This document shows positions 2,062 through 8,932 of a stretch of DNA of 64,000 nt, piece by piece. Within the stretch, counting starts at the first letter, position 1, and every line of letters begins with the position of its first letter. The position numbers and the translations under genes were made by a program. The DNA is taken from positions 1 to 64,000 of the forward strand of contig NZ_MKKC01000153.1 in the NCBI RefSeq assembly GCF_001942255.1, in the 5' to 3' direction. A model generated the notes under the pieces. That model saw only the letters and a list, made by a program, of their open reading frames with translations. It did not search any database and was not told where the DNA came from. This DNA is from Nocardiopsis sp. CNR-923 (GTDB taxonomy: Bacteria > Actinomycetota > Actinomycetes > Streptosporangiales > Streptosporangiaceae).

Positions 2062-3486
2062 TCACCGCACCAGCAGCCGGTTGACCTTCTGGGGCAGCGC
2101 CAGTCCGACCAGGCCCACCAGCGCGTACCCCACCTGCCCCGGCGCGAGCATCCCCAGCACGACCCCCGTGTTGGCCCCGGGCGCGCGCAGGAACTCCCTC
2201 ATCCGCGGATGCGCGTAGGGCACACCGTCCCCCGACACCAGCAGCGTCCCCACCGCGACCAGCGCCAGCGCCGCCCACACGGTCCCGGCCGCGTCGAGTC
2301 CGCCCAGCCACGTCTGCGCCCGGTCGAGCGCCAGCAGCGCGTACGCCGCGCGGTCCGCTCCCGCCGCCACCTCTGCTCCGCTCGCCACGGCCGACACCCC
2401 GGCCACCACCGGCAGCGCCGCGAACAACGCGCCCGCCGACCGGGCCCCGGTCACACCCCCGGTCGCCGACAGCCCCAGCCGCGCGGCCAGGTCGTGCGCG
2501 TTCCTCGTCAGATCCTCCTGCGCCGGGTACCGCCGCCAAGCCCGCCCCTCCGACCGGGCCTCCCCCATCGCGTTCGCCCGCCGCCAGCGCAGGAACCGCC
2601 ACGTGTCGCAGAGCGCGGCCGGCCCCCGCCGGGCGGCGATCACGGACACGGCCAGTTCGTGTGCGATCGACGACGCCGTCGTGGCGAGTGTGACGGGCAG
2701 GTCCACCCATGAGAGCGCGACGCGTCGGAACAGCGGCGCGATGTCGGCGGGGACCCGCACGCGCATCGCGATCGACCTCCCCCACGCCCGCCGCCGCAGC
2801 CCCGCCAGCGGCGGCTGTCCGGGCAGTGCCGGGGTGCTCTCCGCGGCCGTGACGATCATCCGGTAGTCCATGGCGACCGCGCACACCAATGCCAGGAACA
2901 GCAGCCACGGGGTGAGCACCCCGCCGCCGAGCAGGCCGTGGACGATGCCCGTGGCCGGGTGCAGGGCGGCCCCGGCGAGCACCGCGTTGAGGTTGAGGTG
3001 GTCCAGGAGCGCGACCGTCAGCGCCACGGGAGGCAGCAGCCACAGCCATCCGCCGTAGCGCCGTCCGACGATCGCCAGGCCGAGGACGGCCCCGACCAGA
3101 CCGGTGGTGACGGCGTGTCCGGCGAACACGGCGAGCACGGTCCCGTCCGGGGTGGTGACCGTGGTGCCACCTGGCAGGAGGAACCCGTCGTCGGCGGACA
3201 GGTCGGCTGCCCCGAGGGAGGCGCCGGTGAGCACACGTTCGGCCAGTTGGAAACCGGCCCCGGAGGCGGCGGCCAACAGTAGAAGATCGACGGCGGCCAG
3301 GCGGCGGGCCCGCCGGTGGGCGACCAGCGCGAACAGCAGCAGCGGGGTGAGCTTGCCGAGCTCCTCGACGGGGACGGCGACATAGGTGTAGCCGACCACG
3401 CCGTAGGGCTGCGCCCCCAGGAGCCGGACGAGGGCGGACTCGGCTGCGGCGATCGGCCAGAGCAGGGCCGCGCCGACTGCGGTCAT
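2062..3486 (-). CDS. PrsW-family intramembrane metalloprotease
   Basis: A polytopic membrane protein of 474 residues. The N-terminal half has PrsW features: VPVEELGKL near residues 38-46 (the paired Glu of the catalytic site), a later helix with FQLAE, and conserved His residues in AGHAVTTG, LLDHLNLN and VHGLLGG. PrsW proteases cleave membrane proteins such as anti-sigma factors within the bilayer. The C-terminal 230 residues are extra compared with the minimal family and end in further hydrophobic segments. The ATG at 3486-3484 overlaps the TGA of the upstream unknown gene in an ATGA junction, so translation is probably coupled; the partner is a candidate substrate or regulator. The gene is convergent with the lipoprotein, with about 110 bases between. 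Confidence 0.75.
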   Translation of the reverse strand: MTAVGAALLWPIAAAESALVRLLGAQPYGVVGYTYVAVPVEELGKLTPLLLFALVAHRRARRLAAVDLLLLAAASGAGFQLAERVLTGASLGAADLSADDGFLLPGGTTVTTPDGTVLAVFAGHAVTTGLVGAVLGLAIVGRRYGGWLWLLPPVALTVALLDHLNLNAVLAGAALHPATGIVHGLLGGGVLTPWLLFLALVCAVAMDYRMIVTAAESTPALPGQPPLAGLRRRAWGRSIAMRVRVPADIAPLFRRVALSWVDLPVTLATTASSIAHELAVSVIAARRGPAALCDTWRFLRWRRANAMGEARSEGRAWRRYPAQEDLTRNAHDLAARLGLSATGGVTGARSAGALFAALPVVAGVSAVASGAEVAAGADRAAYALLALDRAQTWLGGLDAAGTVWAALALVAVGTLLVSGDGVPYAHPRMREFLRAPGANTGVVLGMLAPGQVGYALVGLVGLALPQKVNRLLVR

Positions 3487-4268
3487 CCGCAGCAGGTCGG
3501 CGAAGGAGACCGTGCGGGATCGGGCGAGCAGGCCAGCTGGACGAGCAGAAGGACGGTGGCGGCCAGGGCCGGGACCGTGGCGTCCAGGCCGGGGACGGCC
3601 AGGGGCGCGGCGAGCAGTACGACGACCATCGCCCACCCCCATGCCCCGCGCAGGGCACGCAGGGCGCGGACGGTGCGCGGCGAGCGCCGTCGGGCCAGAT
3701 CGAACGCCCGCGCGACGCGTTCGGCCAGGTCGGGCCCGGGTCCCCGGGGCGTCTTGGTGTGTCGGGCGCCGGGGTCGACGCAGCGGTACAGCTGGGCGGC
3801 GCGGGACAGCTGGGAGCCGCCGTCGGCCTTCGCGCGGGCGGCGAAGGCGTCGCGCGCCTGGGGGATGTCGGCGCCCACGAGTTCGCGGACGAAGTCGGCG
3901 GGCCCCGCCGCGACGGTGAGTTCGTCGGCCGCGACGAGCACGGCGGCGGAGAAGTCCTCGACACAGACGAGGAAGTCGGTGGGGTACGGCCCCCAGCCAC
4001 GGATGAGGTCGATGAGGGTGTCGGTGTCGAGCGGGACCTCGGTGACCGGTTCGTAGGAGAACTCGGCGCGCGTGCGGCAGACCAGGAGCCGCGCGACGCC
4101 CATGGCCCTGCCCGCGTCGACGATCGCGCGGATGAGGTTGCGGTCGCGCGGCACGACGAACGGAGTCGTGACCTTGCCTCCGGCCCGGATCCAGTGCGGG
4201 TCGAACGCCGTGGCTCCGGCACAGACGCGCAGCACGAGGTCGCGCGCGAGCATGGCCTGTTCTTCCAT
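3483..4268 (-). CDS. Unknown protein with C-terminal membrane hairpin
   Basis: The 261-residue product has a soluble N-terminal region of about 200 residues and two hydrophobic segments near the C-terminus (AMVVVLLAAPLAVPGL and LAATVLLLVQLAC). I recognise no family. ATG 4268 is chosen because AAGGA lies six bases upstream. The last codon overlaps the start of the PrsW-like protease (ATGA), so the two are co-translated and perhaps act together. The C-terminal hairpin is compatible with a substrate of intramembrane proteolysis, but this is inference. The Cys-rich tail (SPTCCG) is unusual. Since frameshift errors are common in this sequence, the exact C-terminus should be read with caution. Confidence 0.6.
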   Translation of the reverse strand: MEEQAMLARDLVLRVCAGATAFDPHWIRAGGKVTTPFVVPRDRNLIRAIVDAGRAMGVARLLVCRTRAEFSYEPVTEVPLDTDTLIDLIRGWGPYPTDFLVCVEDFSAAVLVAADELTVAAGPADFVRELVGADIPQARDAFAARAKADGGSQLSRAAQLYRCVDPGARHTKTPRGPGPDLAERVARAFDLARRRSPRTVRALRALRGAWGWAMVVVLLAAPLAVPGLDATVPALAATVLLLVQLACSPDPARSPSPTCCG

Positions 4269-4428: not shown

Positions 4429-5717
4429 TCAGGCGGGACGCGCGGCACGGGCGGCGGGTGACGCCTCGGCCGGGTGGGGCCTGCGGGCGGGGCGCGGCCC
4501 CGCGCCAAGGGCGTCCCCGCACAGCTGGACGAGGTGCCGGAGACCGGGCAGGTCGATCGTCCACCCCAGCAGCGCCCAGCCGAGGTTGAGGTGCTCCATC
4601 CCCCTGGCCAGCGCGGCGATGCCACTCCACCGCTGCCCGTCCGGCGTCTCGTAGGTGAGGCGGTACAGCACGTCGGGGTGCTCGGCGGCGGGGCGGATGT
4701 CGAGCGCGATCGGCGCGCGGGCGGTGAACCAGCGGGCGAGGGTCAGGCACAGCGCGCAGTTCGCGTCGACGTGGAGCACACCCCGCGTGCGCCCCGGCCA
4801 GGGGCGCCACCGGGGCAGCCAGGGCGGGACCCGCGACCGGTAGGCGGTCCAGTCCTCCCCGAAGCGCTCACGCAGCTGCGCGCCCTCGTGCCACTCGGCC
4901 AACCCGACCGCGTAGACCACGGTCGCGACGGCCAGGAGCAGGAACAGCGGTTCCCGCAGCAGCAGGGCGAGGAGGACGTAGAGGAGGGCCGTCGAGGTCT
5001 GCATCGGGTTGCGCACGAACGCGTACGGCCCGCTGGTGACCAGGCGGCTCGGCGGGTCGCAGGGAAGCGGCGTGCCCCCTCCGACCCGCGCGAACTCCCG
5101 GGCTGCGGCCAGCGCGGGCAGCCCCACGGCGAAGAGGAGCTGCACGGCCGTGAAGGCCTCCGCCGCCGTCATGTCCCGCCCCAGGGCCACGAGCGGCCCG
5201 CCCATCAGGAGCCCGCCCGCGAGGGTGGCCTGGGCCCACATCCGGGCGTGGACCCACTGGCCCTCCCTCGTCCAGTAGGCGAGCAGCAGCGCGGGGATGA
5301 GGCACACGGTGGCCCCGACGATCTCGCCGGCCATCCACCGGTCGTCCAGGACGACGACGGGCTCGGCCAGGGGCATGAGGACGACGTCGGCCCAGACCAG
5401 CACGAAGGAGAGCAGCGGCACCGGGAGCAGGCGCAGCAGGAGGGCGGGGAGCGCTCCCCACAGCAGGACCCAGGCGAGCATGAGGTCCACGGGCATCCCC
5501 CACCACACCGCGCCCTCGGCGTGGAAGGCCCACCATCCGTGTGCAGCGCGTACAGGTTGAGCGGCACGAGGGTCAGCACGGCCCAGGCGCTGGCCACGAT
5601 CATCGCGGCGGTCTCGCGCTGTCGGGGCGCGCGCCACAGGCACAGTCCGGCGAGCGCCAGGGCGGGGAACGCCAGGCCCAGTCCGCGCACGAGGCTCGCG
5701 GGGAGATCGGCGGTCAT
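4429..5717 (-). CDS. ICMT-like membrane methyltransferase fused to DCC (DUF393) domain
   Basis: Repaired, the product has 429 residues. After several membrane segments comes the isoprenylcysteine/phospholipid methyltransferase signature: SGPYAFVRNPMQ, then EWHEGAQLRERFGEDW and the VPPWLPRW end. From about residue 325 there is a thiol-disulfide oxidoreductase-like DCC domain beginning VDANCALC, whose CXXC replaces the usual D-G-X-C-X-X-C. The ICMT family methylates small hydrophobic or prenylated thiol substrates using SAM; DCC proteins are presumed thioredoxin-like. The frame changes near 5537: the first 63 residues lie in one frame and the rest in the next, and adding one base (GG to GGG) gives 1290 bases and a continuous helix. 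The ATG shares its A with the stop of the upstream small gene. The operon is divergent from the TetR gene. Confidence 0.7.
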
Positions 5718-5949
5718 CAGCGGTCCTCCTCCCCGGTCGCGGCGGAGGCGAAGGTGTCCGCGAGGTACGCGGCGGCCAGGGCGATCAGCGCCGGGAGGCC
5801 GACGTAGAGGAACGCGGTCTGGTCCAGGCCGCCCCAGCTCGTGACGCGCAGGAAGGTGAAGGCGGCGAAGATCGCGGCGACGGCCCCGACGAGGATCCAG
5901 CGCTCACGGCTGATCCGGCGCGTGCCGGGGGTTCAGGGGGTTCGGACAC
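5717..5949 (-). CDS. Small two-helix membrane protein
   Basis: Repaired, the gene encodes a 77-residue protein: a proline-rich start (MSEPPEPPG), an arginine-rich stretch (TRRISRERW) and two hydrophobic helices (WILVGAVAAIFAAFTFL and FLYVGLPALIALAAAYL), ending in an acidic tail. The frame shifts near 5925; the helix-coding frame has no start codon of its own, while the GTG at 5949 joins it if one G is restored in a GG pair, giving 78 codons. The TGA overlaps the ATG of the ICMT/DCC gene by one base, so the two are coupled. It is the first gene of the unit facing TetR across the operator. Function unknown. Confidence 0.6.
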
Positions 5950-5979
5950 CACGACGCACACTCCATCTGTCGGACACGC

Positions 5980-6012
5980 GATTAAACCAAGTGCTTTAAT
6001 CAGATGATTAAA
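5980..6012. promoter_or_regulatory. Palindromic operator, probably for the adjacent TetR regulator
   Basis: Bases 5995-6012 read TTTAATCAGATGATTAAA: two eight-base inverted arms around a two-base centre. A third half-site GATTAAA lies at 5980-5986, forming a second inverted pair with 5995-6001. This AT-rich element stands out in a GC-rich region and sits between the divergent small-membrane-protein/ICMT operon and the tetR-like gene, 38 bases upstream of its ATG. TetR proteins normally bind such palindromes and repress both themselves and the divergent neighbour; that this site is bound is inference. Confidence 0.7.
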
Positions 6013-6049
6013 CCGTATGATGAACCCGTCCCCGAACACAAGGAGGGTC

Positions 6050-6698
6050 ATGGCCAAGGGCGGCGGACGCAGATCGAGCGAGGAGACCAAGGAGCGGCTC
6101 CTGGCCGCGGCCGGCGAGGTCCTGCGGGAGGAGGGGTACGCGGGAGCGTCGGCGCGGGCGATCGCGACGCGCGCGGAGGCCAACTCGGCGCTGGTCTTCT
6201 ACCATTTCGGCGGCGTCGACCAGCTGCTCCTGGCCGCCCTCGACCGGTCGAGCGCCGAACGCCTGGCGATGTACCGCGAGCTGACCGCCGGCGCCCGCAC
6301 CCTGGAGGAGCTTGTGGCGGCGGCGACCCGGATCTACCGGACCGACCTGGAACGCGGCTACATCGCCGAGTTCTCCGAGCTGGTGGCGGCCGCCGTGACC
6401 AAGCCGGAGCTGCGCCGGGAGATCAAGGAGCGCGCCGAGCCGTGGATCGCCTTCATCGAGCAGGAGTGGGAGCGGGTGCTCGGTGGGTCGCCCCTGGCCA
6501 GGCTGGTGCCCGCGCGTGAGGTCGCCTACGGGGCGATCACCTTCTACCTGGGGGTGAACCTGTTCTCGGTGCTCGACGAGGACCACTCCCGCACCGAAGC
6601 GGTGTTCGATCTGGCCACACGGCTGGCCCCGCGCGCCAAGCTCCTCACGCTCCGGCTGCCCCAGCGCGATCGGCGCGATCGGCGCGGTGGCGACGTAG
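6050..6698 (+). CDS. TetR-family transcriptional regulator
   Basis: The N-terminal 60 residues form a TetR helix-turn-helix (ERLLAAAGEVLREEGY, then ASARAIATRAEANSALVFYHF), followed by an all-helical ligand domain with ITFYLGVNLFSVLDEDHS near the end. ATG 6050 is preceded by AAGGAGGG. The frame then runs on without a stop for over 3 kb past the natural end, so the true C-terminus is hidden by a one-base error near the CCCC at 6659-6662. Removing one C ends the protein at TAG 6696-6698, about 216 residues, a normal length; adding one C instead would end it at the TGA overlapping the next gene's GTG at 6726. It likely represses itself and the divergent operon through the upstream palindrome. Confidence 0.85.
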
Positions 6699-6725: not shown

Positions 6726-7211
6726 GTGAACGACATCGAGGTGGCGCCCGGGATCGAGTTCCCGGACACGGCCGACGGACGGACGTGGGTCGCCGGCGCG
6801 GTGATCGCCGACCCCCGGGGCAGGGTGTTCGCGCAACGCCGCTCCCCCACGCGCACGGTGTTCCCGCACTGCTGGGACATCGTCGGCGGCCACGTCGAAC
6901 AGGGCGAGAGCATGTTGGAGGGGCTGGCCCGCGAGGTGGCGGAGGAGACCGGCTGGCGCCTGACCGAGGTGCTCGCCGAGTTGTTCGCCCTCGACTGGGA
7001 CCCCGGCGACGGCGTCACGCGCCGCGAGATCGACTACCTCGTGCGGGTCGAAGGGGACCTCTCCGCGCCCCGGCTGGAACCCGACAAGCACACCGAGTAC
7101 CTGTGGGTGGACGACTCGACCGTCCACGTGCTGCGCGACGAGCGCGACCCGGGCGACTACTTCATCACCGACATCGTCCAGCGCGGCCTGGACGCCGCGC
7201 GCACCGACTGA
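6726..7211 (+). CDS. Nudix hydrolase
   Basis: The 161-residue product carries a complete Nudix box, G-x5-E-x7-REV-x-EE-x-GW, beginning GGHVEQGESMLEGLAREV, which binds the divalent metal for cleavage of a nucleoside diphosphate linked to another group. It is preceded by the typical GAVIADPRGRVFAQRR strand; the IDYLVRVEGD and EYLWVDDSTV segments resemble the MutT/IPP-isomerase-like branch, so the substrate is uncertain. The GTG start has GGAGG just upstream. It may be read together with the tetR-like gene 27 bases before it. Confidence 0.88.
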   Translation: MNDIEVAPGIEFPDTADGRTWVAGAVIADPRGRVFAQRRSPTRTVFPHCWDIVGGHVEQGESMLEGLAREVAEETGWRLTEVLAELFALDWDPGDGVTRREIDYLVRVEGDLSAPRLEPDKHTEYLWVDDSTVHVLRDERDPGDYFITDIVQRGLDAARTD

Positions 7212-7213
7212 CG

Positions 7214-8711
7214 TCAGCCGGTCCCGCGCGCCTCGGCGACCGCCAAGGGCAGGCCGTCCAGCAGATCAGTCGCGCTGACCGGCGCACCGCCGCGTGCCAG
7301 CACCGCCGCCCGCCCGTGCAGGTAGGCGCCGCACACAGCGGCCTCGTAGGCGGGCAGTCCGCTGGCCAGCAGCGCGCCGATCGCCCCCGCCAGCACGTCG
7401 CCGGACCCGGCCGTGGCCAGCAACGGCGTGCCCGTCGGATTGGCGACGGCGGGCAGGCCCGGCTGCGTGACGACGGTGGTCGACCCCTTGAGCAGGACCG
7501 TGCAGTCGAACTCTTCGGCGAGCCGGCGCGCGTGCTCCAGGCGGCGGGCCTCGATGTCGGACCGGTCGGCGCCGGGCAGGAGACGGGCGAGCTCACCGGC
7601 GTGCGGGGTGAGGAGCGTGTGCGCGGTGCGCTCCCGCAGGGTCTGGGCCAGGGACGCGCCCCCGTTCCCGCTGAGCAGGGTGAGGGCGTCGGCGTCGACG
7701 AGCAGGGGGCAGTCGCTGTCCAGGACCGCGCGGAGTTCGTCGGCGTTGGCCGGGTGCGTTCCCCGGCCCGGCCCGATGACCAGGGCGCAGACACGTCCGG
7801 GACCGAGTCTGGTGCTGCTCTGGGGGTCGAGGCCGACGGCGACCGTCTCCGGCCAGCGGGCGAGCACCTGGTCGACGGCGGCGCTCGCGCCCCCGTAACG
7901 GACCATCCCGACGCCCGTGCGCAGCGCACCGCCGACGGTGAGGACGGCGGCGCCCCGGTACCGGTCGGATCCCGCGCGGACGGCGAGCAGGCCGCGGCGG
8001 TACTTGTCGGACTCCGTGCCCGGCGTCGGCAGGAGCGCGGCGATGTCCACGGCTTGTGGGCGGATCAGGTCGGGACCGCCCAGCTCCGGGGCCAGACCGA
8101 TGTCCACGAGGTGCACCCGCCCGGCACGATCGGCGCCGGGGTCGACGCAGAGTCCGGGCTTGAGGGCGCCGAAGGTGACGGTGAGGTCGGCGCGCACGGC
8201 GTGTCCGGGCACCTCTCCTGTGTCGGCGTCCACCCCGCTGGGCACGTCGACGGCGACGACGGGCGCGGGCGCGTTCTCGGCGAGCACGGCCAGCGTTGCG
8301 TGGGGTTCCCGGAGTCCGCCGCGCCCACCGATACCCAGCATCCCGTCGATGATGAGGTCGGCGTCGAACAGCTCCCCGCCGTCGTTGGGGTCGCCCTTGA
8401 AGGCACGGGCCCGGCCGCCCGCCGAGCGCAGGGCCGCCAGTCCGCCCTCATGGGCGCGCGGCCCCGCGAGCAGGGCGTGCACGGCGGCTCCGCGCCTGGC
8501 CAGCAGGGCGCCCGCGTAGAGGGCGTCGCCGCCGTTGTCCCCGCTGCCGACCAGCAGCAGCACGCGCGATCCGTACACCCGGGGCAGCGCTCTGGCGCAC
8601 TCCGCCGCGAGCCCGGTCGCGGCACGGCGCATGAGCGCGCCCTCGGGCAGGCGGGCCATGAGGCCGCGCTCAGCCTCGCGGACGGCGCGAACGGGTGTGT
8701 GCGGACCGCAC
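7214..8711 (-). CDS. nnr: Bifunctional NAD(P)H-hydrate epimerase / ADP-dependent dehydratase
   Basis: This repairs NAD(P)HX, the hydrated damage product of NAD(P)H. The N-terminal YjeF_N epimerase domain has GSGDNGGDALYAG and DVPSGVDADTGEVPG. The C-terminal dehydratase domain starts at KYRRGLLAVRAGSDRY and has GPGRGTHP, LLVDADAL and TAGSGDVLAGAIGALL. GTG 8711 is chosen because an AGGAGG lies just upstream and the peptide would begin MRPHTPVRAVREAE as in relatives, but this requires removing one G near 8703-8708. Otherwise an unrelated longer N-terminus or a shortened protein results. Repaired length is about 498 residues, normal for the fused form. It is convergent with the Nudix gene. Confidence 0.88.
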
Positions 8712-8932
8712 GGGGCACCTCCTGGTGTGAACGGTTCGCCGCCCTCGGGGCGGGTCGGGTGGAACGTGCACCATCGTGCCCTACGCACGGCCGGGCGTGC
8801 CCCCACCGCCACACCCGTGATCGCACCCGGCCCGTCTTCCGCTCGCCCACCGGCGGTCACCGTACGGCCACCGGACGCGCGGAGCCGCGGCGCGGCCGGG
8901 CCCGACGCGTCCCCTCACCGCGTCCGACGCCG

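Follow-up and report, generated by a model that had tools for sequence, protein, structure and literature searches.

In the window, by which we mean the whole stretch of 64,000 nucleotides from Nocardiopsis sp. CNR-923 that was analyzed, a minus-strand gene encodes a fusion of three parts, namely an N-terminal membrane domain, a methyltransferase core of the PEMT/ICMT type, and a DCC-like domain with a CxxC motif. It is preceded by the remnant of a partner gene, a palindrome, and a divergently oriented regulator of the TetR family (Table 1). The minus-strand frame 4429-5643 is open over 404 codons and holds both the PEMT/ICMT core and the CxxC-containing C-terminal domain with no stop between them. 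The original prediction had proposed a membrane methyltransferase joined to a CXXC DCC domain, and both the fusion and its placement in the membrane are borne out. As to whether the two domains are separated by a stop or are unfused in all relatives, the outcome favors the fusion: fused frames recur in relatives, a conservation that excludes chance (53-77% identity in the best tblastn segment for the actinobacterial loci of the contig search other than L032).

Table 1. Features of the fusion locus in the window
Feature	Position	Strand	Basis and remarks
Fusion gene	4429..5717	-	N-terminal membrane domain, PEMT/ICMT-type core and DCC-like domain; homologues and ORF reading
N-terminal six-helix membrane domain	5248..5717	-	Alignment to L002 residues 1-157; frame break inside
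PEMT/ICMT-type methyltransferase core	4855..5049	-	Pfam PF04191 stretch, family motif NPMQ; Pfam and structure comparison
DCC-like thioredoxin-fold domain	4522..4767	-	CxxC codons within 4747-4758
Partner remnant	5720..5932	-	Read earlier as a '77-residue helix-pair protein'; a further frame break near 5936-5943
Deletion junction	5777..5786	-	10 bp that align with either flank of a 729-bp stretch retained in L002 and L004
Presumed TetR operator, TTTAATC-N4-GATTAAA	5995..6012		Palindromic; third half-site 5980-5986
Divergent TetR-family regulator	6050..6631	+	ATG 6050 chosen by comparison; end of the conserved part

The start of the fusion is at 5717 (MTADLPAS...), and the first ~60 residues are in a different frame from 4429-5643. 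The 5' part is read in the frame of ORF 5205-5717 and the 3' part in the frame of ORF 4429-5643, and in alignment the window has a one-base gap near 5535-5545 relative to both L002 and L004. With the true start in another frame, the fusion gene is thus broken once near 5535-5545; the break lies inside the N-terminal domain and not between the core and the DCC part. An intact fusion protein has about 430 residues. The next gene downstream in the same direction (2062-4268, minus strand) combines an uncharacterized N-terminal half with a membrane half bearing EELGK, which we take to be PrsW-like; its frame is broken near 3528. In L002 a counterpart of this gene occupies the same position. On the other side, a NUDIX hydrolase gene (6726-7211) adjoins the TetR gene and is followed by a convergent gene for a bifunctional NAD(P)H-hydrate epimerase/dehydratase (YjeF_N and Carb_kinase, 7229-8830).

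All 28 loci that have both a full-length fusion and upstream sequence carry an intact partner gene directly upstream (23 of 23 in the contig search and 5 of 5 distant loci); three loci stand outside this count, L014 and L027 because their sequence starts within the gene and L026 because it is a deletion. The coupling of an upstream gene to the fusion, as originally predicted, is supported by an overlap of the partner end with the fusion start in 26 of the 28 intact loci (all but L003 and L017). In Tsukamurella, an intact partner also lies upstream, one base apart from the fusion. The partner protein comprises five membrane helices and a C-terminal SRPBCC/START-like domain. Five hydrophobic helices were counted in each of 10 Nocardiopsis-type members tested, and the charge distribution predicts that the N-terminus is inside and the SRPBCC domain outside. 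The same simple count gives 7, 6, 6, 6 and 4 helices in five distant members, so that the parity of the latter is unsure. Of 15 members, 11 have a match to the Polyketide_cyc2 family (lipid transport; PF10604) in the C-terminal half at E<=0.1, the best of them at 1.9e-4, and the Tsukamurella partner has one at 4.1e-5; where bits are shown, the scores are under the 27.4-bit cut-off (18.5 bits for the L002 partner, 24.3 bits for Tsukamurella).

The window retains little of this gene. A 77-residue protein had been read from 5949, whereas the frame of GTG 5949 stops near 5785 and the hydrophobic stretch lies in another frame, which is open only from 5932 to 5720 and contains no ATG, GTG or TTG codon. 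In relatives, the two ends of the supposed helix pair belong to a single gene of about 310 codons and are separated by ~730 bp, and the window lacks 729 bp, in frame, between two sites with 10 common aligned bases. The helix pair is accordingly a deletion remnant of a ~310-residue protein and not a working component.

Damage is also seen elsewhere in the window, with further one-base gaps near 3528 (next gene downstream), at 5936-5950 (partner) and near 6697 (TetR tail). In comparison with L002, no gap was found inside the NUDIX gene (6726-7208) or in positions 7229-8690 of the NAD(P)H-hydrate gene, and small gaps occur at 8693-8790, near the start of the latter. Two congeners have deletions of their own: in G003, the partner runs to residue 163 and continues at fusion residue 390, and in G011 the TetR start, the partner and the fusion start are lost. 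These differing deletions show that the operon is dispensable and was damaged more than once. Judged from the sequence, the window copy is probably dead unless its frame breaks are sequencing errors. The explanation that the locus is here a dead remnant, in which the breaks of the fusion are real mutations and nothing works, is therefore one that we rather believe, given the 729-bp partner deletion, the breaks near 5535 and 5936-5943, and the different deletions in the two congeners; against it, the single-base gaps, including those near 3528 and 6697, could be sequencing errors, and the operator and most of the TetR gene are intact.

The divergent TetR gene, noticed already in the original prediction, was substantiated by a TetR_N domain at 36.9 bits (cut-off 24 bits). 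Since its frame continues to 9757 beyond a shift near 6697, the end of the gene was placed where conservation stops. Between this gene and the operon lies a presumed dedicated operator that had been overlooked, together with the separate N-terminal membrane domain of the fusion and the SRPBCC domain of the intact partner. The palindrome TTTAATC-N4-GATTAAA occurs upstream in 20 of the 21 loci read, the remaining one (Xylanimonas, L023) having a degenerate form; the reading covered loci other than L009, L014, L024, L026, L027 and the alphaproteobacterial ones. With two mismatches allowed, the site is the sole match in the 64 kb window (0.00 expected). Among 38 genomes of the genus, that of the window included, 35 have exactly one exact palindrome and three (G008, G011 and G017) have none, and the backward control pattern is absent from all 38; these genome counts refer to exact matches, mismatched sites having been sought in the window only. 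In 33 of the 35 genomes, the site shares a contig with the fusion match (in G003, with its remnant) and is no more than about 2 kb away from it; in G019, the two are on different contigs, and G656 was outside the whole-genome fusion search, so that the distance covers 33 of 35. A homologous TetR gene is divergent in three of five distant actinobacterial loci (L083, L085, L086), L087 has a weaker one downstream, encoded on the same strand, and no TetR homologue was found at the L084 locus. With a single target per genome, TetR is most simply a local sensor for the operon, and we presume that the palindrome and the regulator, inferred to bind it, form a single-target switch.

The fusion is common in one genus and scattered elsewhere. 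The contig search yielded 31 loci, with Nocardiopsis, Streptomonospora, Xylanimonas and alphaproteobacteria among the sources. Of these, 23 are full-length actinobacterial copies with upstream sequence, from Nocardiopsis, Streptomonospora, a record labelled Glycomyces fuscus (L012, NYMS01000048.1) and Xylanimonas; L028, L029 and L030 (with L031 on the same contig as L030) contain a full-length alphaproteobacterial homologue with 28-32% identity to L002, and L014, L026, L027 and L032 are partial. In the whole-genome search, whose genomes overlap with those of the contig search, 33 of 36 other genomes of the genus gave a fusion match at E < 1e-80 (partial in G011 and in pieces in G025), G003 gave a remnant only, and G008 and G017 gave no match; the same search found a full-length copy in 0 of 23 genomes outside the genus. 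In a further search of 296 genomes of the phylum, at least five genomes outside the genus (G170, G137, G089, G298 and G260) have a near-full-length fusion, all five with CxxC; here the best 6 first-look candidates were scored per genome, so homologues may be missed. Among 72,556 plasmid records there was one match, in Tsukamurella tyrosinosolvens, where the gene is annotated as 'methyltransferase' behind a 'hypothetical protein'. Xylanimonas oleitrophica (L023) has the whole module outside the family, with a fusion 55% identical and the degenerate operator, for which horizontal transfer is possible. Locus L088 (genome G060, 5798-6277) encodes the C-terminal CxxC domain of the fusion family without the methyltransferase core; it is possibly another remnant and was excluded from the fusion count.

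For the N-terminal domain, two structure predictions from different first sequences (pLDDT 88.2 and 93.6) gave the same six-helix pattern. Both models match the mycobacterial Insig homologue MvINS, the first with Z 8.0 and the second with Z 8.1; in the second, 125 residues on a chain of 189 are superposed at 2.9 A. When the domain is compared on its own, the next structure follows at Z 4.0. The alignment spans residues 28-154, helices 2-5 of six, and a Z of this size can reflect a common arrangement of helical bundles; Foldseek ranks MvINS at E about 4. In sequence searches, the Insig family (Pfam PF07281) was found neither in the window's own genome (G000) nor above the cut-off in 148 genomes of the class (one, G433, at E<=0.01), and a profile of the domain gave 0 PDB sequences at E<=10. 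We conclude that the modelled domain partly resembles the Insig fold, with common ancestry unproven; the MvINS/SRD5A paper (PMC7815742) serves as background only. Three other candidates were set aside. An origin of the N-terminal domain from lycopene cyclase, considered for the pattern GWW...G.PvD, received a probability of 0.4% when alignment A3 was compared with seven domains by hhalign; DUF6989 matched one member below the cut-off (E 1.1e-4), with 7 weak matches and none over the cut-off in 198 phylum genomes; and the Foldseek rows that pair the N-terminal domain with the KDEL receptor and rhodopsin had E > 3.

The core is recognized by Pfam PEMT (PF04191), at 32.4 bits and E 1.3e-7 for the window frame (cut-off 25 bits) and at E<=0.1 in 16 of 16 members of the fusion family; L030 (23.1 bits) and Tsukamurella (22.4 bits) are below the cut-off. 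The original designation 'ICMT-like' holds for the fold and fails for family membership: the window frame is below the ICMT cut-offs of both Pfam (PF04140, 13.2 bits against 24) and NCBIfam (NF040696, 29.3 bits against 160). An isoprenylcysteine methyltransferase model matches 15 of 16 members at E<=0.1 (best 5.2e-7, under the cut-off where bits are shown), the sole PDB sequence at E<=1 is Ma-ICMT (E 8.8e-4), and the MddA model matches two of 16 members weakly (best E 9.2e-4). In structure comparison, model residues 160-303 match ICMT (5vg9) with Z 10.3 over 120 residues at 3.0 A and Ma-ICMT (4a2n) with Z 9.6; the sterol reductase SR1 (4quv), an NADPH enzyme, is tied with ICMT at Z 10.2, so that the cofactor is not fixed by fold comparison. 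Over model residues 29-303 of the fusion, SRD5A2 has Z 5.4. Foldseek alone gives the whole model no PDB match at E<=0.001; the row that it ranks first, at E 0.017, is 8xku_G from the plant Ycf2-FtsHi complex, which has Z 9.6 to the core. The sterol reductase family is absent from the Pfam and PDB sequence searches of the fusion, and the sequence evidence favors the methyltransferase side over a reductase.

A conserved block, G.GTP.P.DP...V..G......NPMQ, is common to all 25 proteins of alignment A1 and all 16 of the overlapping alignment A2, and NPMQ is invariant in every full-length fusion member aligned. Stand-alone relatives from the phylum search have the same block and mostly RNPMY in place of NPMQ. 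In the nine of 13 stand-alone loci counted (L070, L073, L075 and L079 being left out), NPMY occurs in six, NPMQ in none and the EE pair in all nine, whereas 14 of 16 fusion members are without EE (the exceptions being L084 and L087). Its position is taken by HE or YE, each followed by another residue, in 11 of 16 members, and by HH in three alphaproteobacterial proteins. The pocket seems to have been rebuilt in the fusion family, and with the NPMQ change and the EE loss, ordinary methyl transfer may be altered or lost.

The C-terminal domain is below the 27.8-bit cut-off of Pfam DCC1-like (PF04134) in both the window (15.6 bits, E 0.04) and L002 (20.2 bits), and the family matches nine of 16 members at E<=0.1 (best 8.9e-4). 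Compared with three stand-alone DCC proteins, the actinobacterial domain aligns with hhalign probability 71% and E 3.7e-5, CxxC in register. The motif is present in all 29 full-length actinobacterial copies read (23 of 23 Nocardiopsis-type, 5 of 5 distant and one from Tsukamurella). In the predicted model, it opens the first helix of a thioredoxin-like fold (strand 314-318, helix from 323), and thioredoxin and glutaredoxin rows reach Z of about 4 at model residues 309-388.

In the alphaproteobacterial homologues both cysteines are gone, with CxxC in none of three. By hhalign, their C-terminal domain is nevertheless a homologue of the actinobacterial domain (probability 95.8%, E 7.9e-9); compared alone with the stand-alone DCC proteins, it gave no alignment (probability 0.2%). 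All three clusters have a cytochrome P450 gene directly after the fusion homologue and, behind it, a convergent, intact stand-alone DCC gene. The lost cysteines indicate that redox function in cis is not indispensable to the fusion family, though a stand-alone DCC gene adjoins all three; the enzyme is therefore accompanied by a DCC function, whether in cis or in trans. This is the best evidence for counting a redox part as belonging to the module, with the proviso that three clusters are few and that neighborhood is not function. A search of 198 genomes of the Jannaschia family, with the best 8 candidates scored per genome, gave at least one further genome, G521, in which a long but shortened homologue (model positions 109-420) adjoins a piece of P450. 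Upstream of the alphaproteobacterial fusion homologues, a small membrane protein of 120-128 residues aligns with the membrane half of the actinobacterial partner at hhalign E 0.014 and probability 3.2% (reversed control 0.3%); this suggestion of homology is consistent with its position and order. On a Porphyrobacter MAG contig (L030 and L031; JACESM010000053.1), the same cluster occurs at both ends in opposite orientation, which is probably an assembly artefact, and a gene judged by eye to be of MerR type lies near the cluster in L030.

Based on these observations, we interpret the window as containing a degenerate copy of a membrane module of two genes under TetR control that would act as an inducible methyltransferase for a hydrophobic substrate, a reading to which we assign a probability of about 45%. 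A hydrophobic compound (a lipid, isoprenoid or lipophilic antibiotic) would free TetR from the single operator. The SRPBCC domain of the partner may take up the compound at the outer face and hand it on to the membrane cavity of the fusion, where the PEMT/ICMT-type core, open to the cytosol, would move a methyl group from S-adenosylmethionine onto it. The cytosolic CxxC domain, in turn, could keep the acceptor (probably a thiol) or an enzyme cysteine reduced. The predicted topology, derived from hydropathy and charge only, has the SRPBCC domain outside and the SAM and DCC sides inside, an arrangement that would be compatible with a route leading from the outer leaflet to an active site in the cytosol; the opposite sides of the SRPBCC and DCC domains are a difficulty for direct contact.

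Two alternatives concern the chemistry of the intact module, and we regard both as unlikely. The first is detoxification by thiol S-methylation, in which the DCC domain would reduce a lipophilic disulfide and the core would methylate the resulting thiol, much as MddA methylates methanethiol. It draws on the constancy of CxxC in the 29 actinobacterial copies, on the fusion of the DCC domain on the predicted SAM side, on the two weak MddA matches, and on the stand-alone DCC genes adjoining the three alphaproteobacterial clusters whose fused domain lost its cysteines. The absence of cysteines from those alphaproteobacterial proteins themselves argues the other way, as does the larger number of members matched, albeit under the cut-off where shown, by the isoprenylcysteine methyltransferase model.

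According to the second, the core is no longer a methyltransferase and would serve as a lipid-binding sensor or as an NADPH-dependent reductase like SR1/SRD5A. The changed pocket residues, the SR1 tie and the SRD5A2 match point in this direction, and so does the partial resemblance of the first domain to Insig proteins, which bind lipids. Set against this are the Pfam and PDB sequence searches, which return PEMT/ICMT and no sterol reductase family, and the residues invariant across phyla, which argue for a kept active site. Finally, it is very improbable that in-frame deletion has given this strain a true short membrane subunit in the form of the 77-residue protein, since its open frame has no ATG, GTG or TTG codon, a second frame break is present, and the short form occurs in 0 of 28 loci tested, even though the 729 bp lost are divisible by three and the partner gene still has its end in place before the fusion start.

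Beyond the proposed inducible methyltransferase, we may speculate, at rather long odds that take account of an MvINS match over four of six helices, that the family constitutes an undescribed class of membrane enzymes, lipid-modifying or lipid-sensing, in which one polypeptide would unite a lipid-binding domain of Insig type, a methyltransferase core whose pocket has been rebuilt, and a thiol-redox part. A START-like partner would feed it at the outer face under a single-target TetR, and the redox part would act in cis in actinobacteria or in trans, with P450, in alphaproteobacteria. The Insig fold is known from sterol sensing, and the Insig-like reading, if true, would link this fold to a bacterial enzyme. 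The module matters also because most genomes of the genus searched have it, with a single presumed operator in each, and because the NPMQ motif of its enzyme, though changed, does not vary among the full-length members aligned. Each of its parts resembles a known superfamily, and the combination, the changed pocket and the redox part in cis or trans are without description in the open-licence literature, to which our search extended, subscription journals being outside its scope; neither the fusion architecture nor a function assigned to the module was found there, and papers naming DCC/DUF393 proteins have other subjects. For example, PMC8612252 mentions a DUF393 protein on a heliorhodopsin transcript, which is unrelated to the fusion.

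With the PEMT/ICMT superfamily (Ma-ICMT 4A2N, eukaryotic ICMT 5VG9/5V7P, bacterial 'isoprenylcysteine methyltransferase family' proteins and MddA), the fusion has in common the core fold and the block G.GTP.P..P...V..G....V.NPM ... F...W/Y..Y ... PR. In contrast to these proteins, it adds the six-helix N-terminal domain and the CxxC domain, has Q after NPM, has lost EE in 14 of 16 members and, in the actinobacterial loci tested, is accompanied by the upstream membrane-SRPBCC partner. The C-terminal domain resembles DCC1-like thiol-disulfide oxidoreductases (PF04134, formerly DUF393) in the co-linear arrangement with CxxC after the first strand and in the thioredoxin-like fold; it differs in its score under the Pfam cut-off, in its joining to a methyltransferase core, and in the replacement, in most members, of the first D of DxxCxxC, which we take to be the DCC motif. 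The C-terminal half of the intact partner resembles SRPBCC/START-like proteins (Polyketide_cyc2, PF10604), yet it is under the cut-off, tethered behind membrane helices and predicted to lie outside the membrane. The predicted fold of fusion residues 28-154 is like that of Insig/MvINS (4XU4, 4XU6; Z 8.1), whereas the domain of the fusion is without detected sequence similarity to them and is joined to an enzyme. Lastly, the alphaproteobacterial P450 cluster (Jannaschia, Loktanella, Porphyrobacter) has a homologous fusion-type protein and a small membrane gene upstream, and departs from the actinobacterial module in the P450 gene next to it, the separate convergent DCC gene and the fused domain devoid of cysteines.
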